Source: Candidatus Falkowbacteria bacterium
GTDB taxonomy: Bacteria > Patescibacteriota > Patescibacteriia > Patescibacteriales > GWE2-39-37
Assembly (NCBI GenBank): GCA_013336275.1
Contig: JAAXUA010000006.1
Coordinates: 1-56,770, forward strand
Length of the DNA: 56,770 nucleotides
Reading direction: 5' to 3'
The position numbers were made by a program, and so were the translations under genes. Below, one piece after another: positions 17,718 through 20,850 of this stretch; within the stretch, counting starts at the first letter, position 1, and each line of letters starts with the position of its first letter. The notes under the pieces were generated by a model. That model worked only from the letters and a program-made list of their open reading frames with translations. It was not told the DNA's origin and made no database searches.

Positions 17718-18245
17718 ATGAAATTGATTGTAGGTCTCGGCAACCCAGGAAAACCCTATGAACTCACCCGCCACAACGTCGGTTTCTTGGCGGTTGACGC
17801 GATCGCCGATGAATTCGGACTGACTTGGACCAAGTGGAAGGACAAATACAGTGCTCTAGTCTCCCGCTACAACGATATCATCCTGGTCAAGCCACAGGAT
17901 TTCATGAACATCTCCGGCCTGTCCGTCAGAAACATCTTCGATTACTACAAGATACCGGTCAAAGAGGACTTGGCCAGCATCCTGACCGTCATCCACGACG
18001 ACCTCGATGTCGATCTGGGGGCCTTCAAGGTGGCGACCGCCTCCCGAGCTGCCGGCCACAACGGCGTCCAATCGCTGATCGACCATCTGGGCACCAAAAA
18101 ATTCACCCGCTGTCGTGTCGGCATCCGCGTACCGAACCCCAGAAGGATCCCCGCTGAAAAATTCGTTTTGGAAAAATTCAAAAAAGAGGAGCTTGCAGCC
18201 ATCAAACAACAATTCCCTGAGATAAAAAAAATCGCCCTTGGTTAA
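17718..18245 (+). CDS. pth: Peptidyl-tRNA hydrolase
   Basis: 175 residues; cleaves peptidyl-tRNA released from stalled ribosomes. Catalytic residues fit the family: Asn in LGNPG (about 8-10), His20 in TRHNVGF, Asp in HDDLDVDLG (about 95) and Asn in AAGHNGVQS (about 114). KPQDFMNISG is present. It is a little shorter than the common 185-195 residues. It is the last gene of the operon, and its TAA stop codon is the loop of the terminator hairpin. Confidence 0.96.
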   Translation: MKLIVGLGNPGKPYELTRHNVGFLAVDAIADEFGLTWTKWKDKYSALVSRYNDIILVKPQDFMNISGLSVRNIFDYYKIPVKEDLASILTVIHDDLDVDLGAFKVATASRAAGHNGVQSLIDHLGTKKFTRCRVGIRVPNPRRIPAEKFVLEKFKKEELAAIKQQFPEIKKIALG

Positions 18246-18268: not shown

Positions 18269-19189
18269 TCACTTTTCATTCAAGCGGCCGAACGGGACAT
18301 GGACTAAAGGTACGCCGTCGACGCCTTCAAGATGCGCGATCTGGTCATCAAAATAAAGGTGCGGCCTCAGCTTTTCCAAGACCGGTTTCTTGGCCAGTCC
18401 GCCCAAGAAAAAAGCGTAATCGATCTCGATTCCCCAGGCACGCAAAGTAGTCGCAACCCGCTCGTGAGCCGGAGCGCACCTTGCCGTAATAATGGCAGTC
18501 TTGATAAAACGCCGATAAGTCCTGTCAGCGGCTTCAGCGGCCACTTCAAGCTGCCTGATCGCCATCAGTTGCCTGACCAAACGGGCTAACGGTCCTGATT
18601 CATGGGCCACGGCAGCCGACTTCTGTTCAGAGACTTGGAACTCGTCCAGGCCGCGCTCCTTGTAGACCTGCTCGGCTGCATCGTCTGCGATTACGCCATC
18701 GAAATCGAAGGCGATACGAAGCTCATCATCCCCAGCCGAATCATCGACTTTGCTGCCGATTACTAGCCCGGCCGGGTGTCCTCGCTTGATTGATTCGCGG
18801 ACATCATTCTCGTTCCCGGAAAGGAACAAGGAAACATTGAACACCGGCAGAAAATCATAGAATTCGCCTCCCGGGAAAAAGCTGCCTCGCGTGATATCGA
18901 GACCGTAGTGCCTAATCGAGCGAAAGACGCGCAAGCCGGTTTCCGGACTGTTGTGGGAAAATAGGATGACCTCCACCGGCTGCTGCTCAGGAAAAATCTG
19001 ATTCAGCCGCAAAAAGCGTCTGATGAATGGGAAGGCGACTCCGGGCTCGAGAACTTTGTCGATATGCCGCTCCTGATACCGCTTGTAGGCGGCTGGGCCC
19101 TTGCTGGTGAACACCGCATCTGAGGCGGCCAGGTCGAACAACGCGCTTGAAGCGATGCCGATAACGATCTTGCCATCTAATTTCTTCAC
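18269..19189 (-). CDS. Cytosolic 5'-nucleotidase (PF06189-type)
   Basis: 306 residues. The sequence follows the NT5C1-like bacterial 5'-nucleotidase pattern: SALFDLAASDAVF, YKRYQERHIDK, PGVAFPFIRR, VILFSHNSPETGLRVF, YGLDITRGSFFPGG, LRIAFDFDGVIADD, ITARCAPAHERV, LRAWGIEIDYAFFLGG and FFDDQ-like YFDDQ. It is a HAD-fold enzyme expected to dephosphorylate nucleoside monophosphates. The start is GTG 19189, fixed by SD AGGAGG at 19198-19203, 8 bases upstream. It is a single-gene unit convergent with pth and one of the strong-SD accessory genes. Confidence 0.88.
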   Translation of the reverse strand: MKKLDGKIVIGIASSALFDLAASDAVFTSKGPAAYKRYQERHIDKVLEPGVAFPFIRRFLRLNQIFPEQQPVEVILFSHNSPETGLRVFRSIRHYGLDITRGSFFPGGEFYDFLPVFNVSLFLSGNENDVRESIKRGHPAGLVIGSKVDDSAGDDELRIAFDFDGVIADDAAEQVYKERGLDEFQVSEQKSAAVAHESGPLARLVRQLMAIRQLEVAAEAADRTYRRFIKTAIITARCAPAHERVATTLRAWGIEIDYAFFLGGLAKKPVLEKLRPHLYFDDQIAHLEGVDGVPLVHVPFGRLNEK

Positions 19190-19260
19190 GATTCAATCCT
19201 CCTCTTTTATGTAATGAGCTTCTATACGGTTAAATTATTTTTCAAACCCATAAAGATGTC

Positions 19261-19344
19261 TGTCCCCTGGCAATCATTTTTGCGCATATGTACCCTGCCT
19301 GCCGGCAGGCAGGTCATCTAAGCAAAAATGATTGCCAGGGGACA
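19261..19344. repeat. Hairpin repeat family, copy C (with inserted palindrome)
   Basis: Perfect 23-bp arms, 19261-19283 and 19322-19344. The loop carries the same frame as copies A and B (GCGCATATGTAC ... TCATCTAAGC), interrupted between GTAC and TC by a 20-base palindrome CCTGCCTGCCGGCAGGCAGG (19294-19313). The arms retain only GGCA..C.TTTTT in common with A and B. Confidence 0.85.
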
Positions 19345-19390
19345 AACTAGCTGCGACTATGAATTTGCCAAATACAAAAGTGCAAATCGG

Positions 19391-19420
19391 GCACAAAAAA
19401 ACAGAGTAATCGCTCTGTTG
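19391..19420 (-). terminator. Intrinsic terminator of the putative small RNA
   Basis: Minus strand: AACAGAG (19413-19419), loop CGATTA, CTCTGTT (19400-19406), then an uninterrupted T-run. No minus-strand protein gene lies upstream of it within 300 bases, which points to an RNA gene. Confidence 0.75.
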
Positions 19421-19683
19421 CCATCTGACGTGGATGATTCTGCCTAGAAGCTAAGAGATAACCCTTATTAATCCGGCAAAATCAAAGGAGGGAAGATTTT
19501 GCCAAGATGACTCCTAGACAAAGCTATCAACGCCAAAATGAATATGTTACAATTGTGATATCCGTCTGCGTTAGCGATCAAGGCACTACTTGCCATAAGG
19601 GATATAAGCCACGCATATGGTCAAGGAGGAAAGCCATATGTCGCACCACACCCTTAAACAAGTAGTGCTTCAACCACTAACGA
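19396..19683 (-). ncRNA. Putative regulatory RNA with two anti-Shine-Dalgarno hairpin loops
   Basis: A transcript of about 288 bases is bounded by a TTGACA-N17-TAAGGT promoter and an intrinsic terminator. The 5' part folds into a long nested structure: CGTTAG with CTAACG, GCACTACTTG with CAAGTAGTGC, TAAGGG with CCCTTA, and CATATGG (19634-19640) with CCATATG (19614-19620), closing a loop CUUUCCUCCUUGA. A second perfect 9-bp hairpin (19475-19483 with 19495-19503) closes a loop UUCCCUCCUUU. Both loops contain CCUCCUU, the anti-SD tail of 16S rRNA. I could not match it to 6S, SRP, tmRNA or RNase P RNA. Inference: an sRNA that pairs with SD sequences. Confidence 0.5.
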
Positions 19684-19689
19684 TACCCT

Positions 19690-19718
19690 ACCTTATCACG
19701 AAATTTCTTTCCTGTCAA
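19690..19718 (-). promoter_or_regulatory. Promoter of the putative small RNA
   Basis: Minus-strand consensus TTGACA (19713-19718), 17 bases, TAAGGT (19690-19695). The predicted start near 19683 falls at the base of the first long hairpin. Confidence 0.55.
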
Positions 19719-19749: not shown

Positions 19750-20850
19750 ATGGCATCGGAATCGGTAACTTGGGCCGCAATCGGCTCTTTTTCTAAATTC
19801 GGGCCTGCCCGGCTGAGCCGGCTTGAGTCGCATTTCAAAGAACCGGATAGGGTCCTCAAGGCTTCAGCAAGCGAACTGGCCCATGCCGGTCTTGATCCGG
19901 CCTTAGCCCAAGAATTCGCCGCCTGGCGTCACGGGCTTGATTTAACCAAATTCAGCGACTGGTTGGAGCGTGAAAAAATAGACGTCATACTTCGGACTGA
20001 CCCTGGATACCCGGAATTGTTGGCCTCGATCTATCAGCCGCCATTCCTATTATATAGCAAAGGCGCGGCCGTCGGTAAAGAGCTCGCTTTAGCCGTAGTC
20101 GGGGCCAGGAAGTTCAGCATTTACGGCCGGCAAGCGGTCGAACAGCTTGTGGGTTCAATTGCAAGGAACATCACCGTTGTCAGCGGCCTGGCCCTGGGTA
20201 TCGATGCCCTAGCTCACCAAGCCGCCCTCGACGCAGGGGGCCGCACTATTGCCGTATTAGGCTCCGGTCTCGACAGGCAATCTATTTATCCTTCGAACAA
20301 CCGCTACCTAGCTGAAAAGATCATAGGAACCAGAGGGCAGCTGCTCTCGGAATTCGCTCCAGGCACTCCGCCGCTTAAACACCACTTCCCTTTGCGCAAC
20401 CGCATCATCTCTGGGATCAGCCAGGCCACTTTGGTGATTGAAGCCGCCCTCAAATCCGGATCGCTTATCACCGCCTACCAGGCACTGGAACAAGGGCGGG
20501 AGGTTTTTGCCGTGCCAGGAAGCATCTACTCACCCCTCTCCGCCGGAACCAACCAGCTGATCAAACAAGGGGCAACCAGCATCACTTCCAGCGAAGACAT
20601 CCTCTCCGCCCTTGACTTAACCGACCTAAGTCAGTATATTGGAAAGCATGCTAAGACAGATGCCTCCCTTTCGCTTGATCCGACCGAAGCGGCGATCATG
20701 TCGGCGCTGAGCCAAGAAGCCAAGCATATCGAGCTAATAATAGCCGAAACCGGCCTGACGGCGAGCCAAGCCAACGGCGCCCTGACTCTTCTGGAAATCA
20801 AAGGGCTGGCCCGGAATATCGGCGGCATGCAATATATAAGAAAAATTTAA
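19750..20850 (+). CDS. dprA: DNA-processing protein DprA
   Basis: 366 residues. DprA loads RecA onto incoming single-stranded DNA during natural transformation. A helical N-terminus (HhH/SAM-like, about 1-80) precedes the Rossmann-like DprA core: LALAVVGARKFSIYGRQAVEQL, VVSGLALGIDALAHQAALDAGGRTIAVLGSGLD, YPSNNRYLAEKI and FPLRNRIISGISQATLVIEAALKSGSLITAYQALEQGREVFAVPGS. The C-terminal about 60 residues are a winged-helix-like domain. No SD precedes the ATG. Its presence fits the DNA uptake seen widely in this radiation. Confidence 0.95.
   Translation: MASESVTWAAIGSFSKFGPARLSRLESHFKEPDRVLKASASELAHAGLDPALAQEFAAWRHGLDLTKFSDWLEREKIDVILRTDPGYPELLASIYQPPFLLYSKGAAVGKELALAVVGARKFSIYGRQAVEQLVGSIARNITVVSGLALGIDALAHQAALDAGGRTIAVLGSGLDRQSIYPSNNRYLAEKIIGTRGQLLSEFAPGTPPLKHHFPLRNRIISGISQATLVIEAALKSGSLITAYQALEQGREVFAVPGSIYSPLSAGTNQLIKQGATSITSSEDILSALDLTDLSQYIGKHAKTDASLSLDPTEAAIMSALSQEAKHIELIIAETGLTASQANGALTLLEIKGLARNIGGMQYIRKI

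Follow-up and report, generated by a model that had tools for sequence, protein, structure and literature searches.

A predicted small RNA gene with anti-Shine-Dalgarno loops beside dprA and pth in a Falkowbacterium, and its relatives in Patescibacteria

Upstream of dprA in a contig of a Candidatus Falkowbacteria bacterium (JAAXUA010000006.1; the whole 56,770 nucleotides analysed are referred to below as the window) lies a minus-strand unit, 19718-19393, in which two structured domains are framed by a promoter and a terminator, and whose hairpin loops resemble the 3' end of 16S rRNA. Is this the gene of an RNA, and, if so, what might such loops do in the cell? Judged from sequence and its conservation, the locus is a predicted free-standing small RNA gene of ~290 nt and one member of a family of the Patescibacteria (CPR).

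The elements that the initial annotation had named are all in place (Table 1). These include the minus-strand promoter TTGACA-N17-TAAGGT and the intrinsic terminator, as well as CCTCCTT at 19629-19623 and 19491-19485 of the same strand. The two perfect hairpins are likewise present, with CAUAUGG/CCAUAUG (7 bp) and GGCAAAAUC/GAUUUUGCC (9 bp) as their stems, but they cap far larger folds, namely a hairpin of ~45 pairs and a three-way junction. For the RNA as a whole, the folding energy is -113 kcal/mol, compared with -77.8 ± 4.6 kcal/mol for shuffled sequences (z -7.65; none of 100 shuffles reached the native value), and CCUCC is unpaired in the ensemble with a probability of ~0.93-1.0 in both loops. 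Since the 7-mer CCTCCTT is not rare in the window when taken alone (14 observed vs 8 expected), chance had to be judged against relatives, and the evidence beyond chance for an RNA is the structural covariation and conservation found among them.

Table 1. Features of the RNA gene and its neighbours in the window
Feature	Position	Strand	Basis
Promoter TTGACA-N17-TAAGGT	19690..19718	(-)	direct sequence; TTGACA from 19718, TAAGGT to 19690, 17-nt spacer
Domain 1 (H1), long hairpin, 44 modelled pairs	19570..19681	(-)	R1/R2 covariance models
Domain 1 apical anti-SD loop CCUCCUU	19623..19629	(-)	column identity and ensemble unpairedness
Domain 2 (D2), three-way junction (closing helix, anti-SD hairpin, small hairpin)	19434..19527	(-)	R3 model
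Domain 2 anti-SD loop CCCUCCUU	19485..19492	(-)	loop conservation and ensemble unpairedness
Intrinsic terminator AACAGAGCGATTACTCTGTT-T7	19393..19419	(-)	stem 19419-19400, then T-run
dprA, divergent neighbour	19750..20850	(+)	alignment with relatives' DprA
pth (peptidyl-tRNA hydrolase), convergent neighbour	17718..18245	(+)	tblastn match onto ORF

A plain DNA search of 60 relatives returned similar stretches in five, each adjoining dprA and/or pth and each with the same anti-SD loop. A covariance model of domain 1 built from six sequences (R1) matched 48 of the 111 genomes of the order at E <= 1e-3, the E-values of our covariance models being rough because of short calibration; a second R1 place in one genome (G060:C6) was weak and without the CTCCTT loop, and was discarded as spurious. 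Across 42 aligned relatives, compensatory changes were observed in 41 of the 44 pairs of domain 1 and 90.4% of cells pair, with 0/500 shuffles reaching the observed value, and each of the seven columns of the loop CCUCCUU was identical in at least 41 of the 42 sequences. The stems thus covary while the loop stays anti-SD. Moreover, most members scored 60-100 bits with a second model (R2), against ~30 at threshold, so the loop was not required for detection and its invariance in domain 1 is not a search effect. A sigma-70-type promoter on the RNA strand (TTGACN-N16-18-TNNNNT) was found upstream in 39 of 48 relatives.

The domain 1 alignment also indicates the strand. Its cells contain 235 G-U pairs vs 48 A-C mismatches, an excess which identifies the minus strand as the RNA, and the model score is higher there, at 106 bits vs 28 on the other strand. 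The only competing reading that the initial annotation had put forward was a short plus-strand ORF with AAGGAGG as its SD, and in the window an ATG 8 nt after AAGGAGG does open 31 codons; however, an ATG followed by at least 20 codons is kept in only 2 of 48 relatives, and the G-U/A-C asymmetry, the promoters and the model scores all favour the minus strand. We rejected this ORF, already refuted by its non-conservation, and leave it practically no chance, whereas the proposed RNA gene on the minus strand of a CPR bacterium is borne out by the covariation, the asymmetry and the promoters.

A second structured domain follows domain 1 in 33 of the 48 members; it is a three-way junction whose loop reads CCCUCCU. 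Because these 33 had been chosen by the motif, a separate model (R3) was built and the genomes were searched anew, which yielded matches in 48 of the 111 genomes of the order, at one locus each. In domain 2, compensatory changes occur in 21 of 29 pairs, a value that 0/500 shuffles reach, and CCCUCC is invariant in all 23 aligned sequences, though these were selected with that motif and the invariance of this loop is partly built into the R3 model. The RNA was detected by R3 alone in 17 genomes. For ten of these the DNA upstream was inspected, and in most of the ten a TTGAC-type promoter stands a short way ahead of domain 2 and no domain-1 hairpin with the loop is seen. The distribution of R2 and R3 matches hence defines three architectures: domain 1 alone (as in G002, where a T-run directly follows it), both domains, and domain 2 alone. 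The anti-SD loop is the element common to all of them. R2 and R3 between them match 67 of the order's 111 genomes; the remaining genomes gave no match, which counts against the mechanism proposed below. As a separate observation, the 5' strand of the domain 2 closing helix keeps CUAGGAG within the order, and its partner is sometimes C and sometimes U (e.g., G-C 10, G-U 9); this AGGAG might base-pair with the CUCCU in the loops of the RNA itself, as a possible self-inhibiting switch.

In a sample of 381 genomes from the class, R3 matched 40, of which 25 belong to other orders; in a sample of 380 from the phylum it matched 11, of which 9 belong to other classes, and the E-values of the phylum-level matches are modest (8.8e-12 to 3.4e-4). 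A domain-2-like core is accordingly not confined to this order: further orders of the class have it, and so, with lower scores, do further classes of Patescibacteria. Promoters and neighbours, features absent from the model, support these distant matches: in 18 of 26 distant loci, dprA and/or pth lie next to the RNA, oriented as in the window. In the wider core (28 aligned sequences), compensatory changes affect 34 of 36 pairs (0/500 shuffles reach this), each base of the loop CCCUCCU is found in at least 27 of the 28, and the unpaired junction bases GAA, AGUA and AAG as well as a C are conserved. The covariance search of related CPR genomes that the initial annotation had suggested thus revealed a family extending far beyond one genome, with a conserved junction in addition to the loops and stems.

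The genomic setting is equally recurrent. Of 101 loci, 57 have dprA upstream and divergent and pth downstream and convergent, 22 have one of the two genes, and 22 have neither within ~1.5 kb; no other orientation of dprA or pth relative to the RNA occurs among the 101. When R2 was run over 80 named dprA loci, only two matched, both identical over 400-base stretches to genomes of the window's order (Candidatus Falkowbacteria and relatives). In six other named CPR dprA loci (Daviesbacteria, Azambacteria, Kerfeldbacteria and others), the search gave no RNA of this kind beside dprA, so the RNA is not universal there, and the dprA loci of Chloroflexi and other bacteria, which served as negatives, gave no match with R2 or, in the seven tried, with R3. 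In a genome of another order (G154, L068, 1501-1641), the RNA is divergent from a putative smpB ORF instead of dprA; SmpB is the tmRNA-binding protein.

In the window, a 5'-nucleotidase gene (PF06189, E 6e-114; 18269-19189), with a GAGGAGG SD and a GTG start, lies between pth and the RNA gene, and in many relatives pth itself takes that position directly beside the RNA gene. Just downstream of the RNA there is a long, near-perfect inverted repeat at 19257-19349 (TGTCCCCTGGCAATCATTTTTGC...GCAAAAATGATTGCCAGGGGACA), which resembles a small mobile or repetitive element; a 48-nt piece on contig C2 (L185:9635-9682) is 94% similar to it. Rfam matches at 19257-19349 (microRNA families, WsnRNA46) were dismissed as artefacts of this repeat.

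The 16S rRNA of the same genome ends GGAUCACCUCCUUUCU, and the match of its end to CCUCCUU is exact over 7 nt, just as had been claimed for the loops; they carry the SD-pairing core, not the 16S flanks. Duplexes of the loops with AAGGAGGU are predicted at -10.6 to -10.9 kcal/mol, nearly as stable as that of the 16S tail at -11.6 kcal/mol. In 457 kb of this genome, GGAGG stands before 13.5% of the genes of at least 150 aa, and per candidate start GGAGG exceeds intragenic starts ~3-fold and AAGGAGG ~9-fold; only a distinct minority of its genes has a strong SD. SDs are rare before the RNA's neighbours (pth 0/61, dprA 5/60), and any SD target must therefore be in trans.

We consider a trans-acting antisense RNA that occludes strong SDs, as in NfeR1, to be the best explanation and a reasonably probable one, the mRNA step being what we infer. 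The loops of the RNA, as copies of the 16S anti-SD, would base-pair in trans with the AGGAGG SD sites of the strong-SD mRNA minority, and an SD paired in this way would exclude the 30S subunit, so that translation of those mRNAs would be lowered. The RNA probably controls, in this manner, which messages get translated. The likely role of the junction bases GAA, AGUA and AAG is to stabilise the fold or to contact a protein or the ribosome. A look at the Pfam content of ~20 strong-SD genes showed no clear regulon, with a mixture of NAD salvage, radical SAM, Ig-like and 5'-nucleotidase functions. Strong-SD genes do cluster at ~16973-39176 of contig C1 of G000 (L184, L193), where they include NUDIX, nicotinate phosphoribosyltransferase and NAD synthase genes; this run may represent an acquired cluster for NAD salvage and be a candidate regulon.

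The conserved, unpaired junction bases exceed the needs of an antisense RNA and fit a ribonucleoprotein or ribosome-bound RNA, which speaks against an antisense-only view and suggests a protein or ribosome partner as well. Given this, the loop might, in the main rival reading, mimic the 16S 3' end for a protein (a factor in 16S maturation or in initiation) or for the 30S subunit, so that the RNA titrates a factor or regulates ribosomes instead of pairing with mRNA. Identity of the loop to the 16S core CCUCCU(U), sequence conservation of GAA, AGUA and AAG over several classes, and a single-copy, ancient locus reminiscent of housekeeping RNAs would all suit such a mimic. We nevertheless regard it as unlikely, as the flanks of CCUCC differ (UCA precedes it in 16S rRNA, mostly UUU or an extra C in the RNA), which means that only the SD-pairing core of the 16S tail has been copied. 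It is also conceivable, if on the whole doubtful, that the RNA is of an ancestral, ribonucleoprotein type found throughout Patescibacteria, which copies the anti-SD and controls initiation generally, for instance the balance of SD-led and SD-less messages, or acts via the 30S subunit.

The likeness to the anti-SD could even be secondary, the loop of a structured RNA pairing with some other RNA or serving an unknown ribonucleoprotein. The extra C of CCCUCCU, the commonest loop of the wider family (16S rRNA has ACCUCCU), would agree with this; however, at least six contiguous, near-invariant bases match the SD-pairing core in all architectures, and we think this reading quite improbable. A cis-acting antisense or insulating element of the pth-dprA region could account for the 79 of 101 loci with divergent dprA, convergent pth or both, always in constant orientation. 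We give this very little credence, since 22 of the 101 loci lie elsewhere, the loops do not suit two genes that so rarely have an SD, and the RNA has its own promoter and, in the window, its own terminator. Weighed against these readings, trans-acting occlusion of strong SDs remains our preferred account. The RNA is old enough to have kept its dprA/pth site in several classes, and its sequence and structure are well defined; it suggests that initiation is controlled post-transcriptionally in cells that can be cultured only with great difficulty, and makes the regulation of translation in CPR bacteria, together with the purpose of their minority of strong SDs, a testable question.

How does this RNA relate to known systems? 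The expectation that it would match no housekeeping RNA held: at the gathering score, Rfam has no match in the window, none of its families (Rfam 15, including 6S, 6C, SRP, tmRNA and RNase P) lies over the RNA at E <= 10, and none lies over the RNA in the loci of 20 relatives at E <= 0.05. A divergent tmRNA or RNase P RNA was rejected, as the genome has both elsewhere. In the open-access papers searched, we found no CPR small RNA family of such a kind, and within that literature the gene is previously undescribed. The actinobacterial 6C RNA, known as B11 in mycobacteria, has two conserved hairpins with C-rich loops, whereas the CPR loops are not six-C runs, and 6C is among the families without a match. 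Closer in principle are the alphaproteobacterial cuckoo / alpha-r14 RNAs (SmelA075/SmelA099, NfeR1), in which stems vary strongly, each loop holds a constant anti-SD and the number of hairpins is modular (PMC3927594); NfeR1, with loops of the same kind, pairs with mRNAs at their translation initiation regions and thereby silences them (PMC10746234). The CPR RNA shares with them the unpaired anti-SD in hairpin loops and the variable stems. However, their motif is CCUCCUCCC instead of CCUCCUU/CCCUCCU, they have three or four hairpins where the CPR RNA has one or two larger domains, and they occur in several copies per genome whereas R3 finds one locus per genome. Moreover, unlike the cuckoo RNAs, the CPR RNA has a three-way junction with conserved unpaired bases and a conserved dprA/pth site in Patescibacteria. 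By motif, copy number and hairpin number, it is not a member of the cuckoo family, and the likeness to C/U-loop sRNAs that the initial annotation had drawn holds as a working principle but not as family membership. The same applies to sX13 of Xanthomonas, whose C-rich apical loops act on G-rich motifs near start codons (PMC3771888), and to RNAIII/RsaE-type sRNAs: the C-rich apical loops are shared, but theirs are CCCC/CCCCC loops from other phyla, and the CPR RNA has neither structure nor an Rfam match in common with them. Hence, it would work like a known kind of RNA but belongs to a separate and apparently ancient family.
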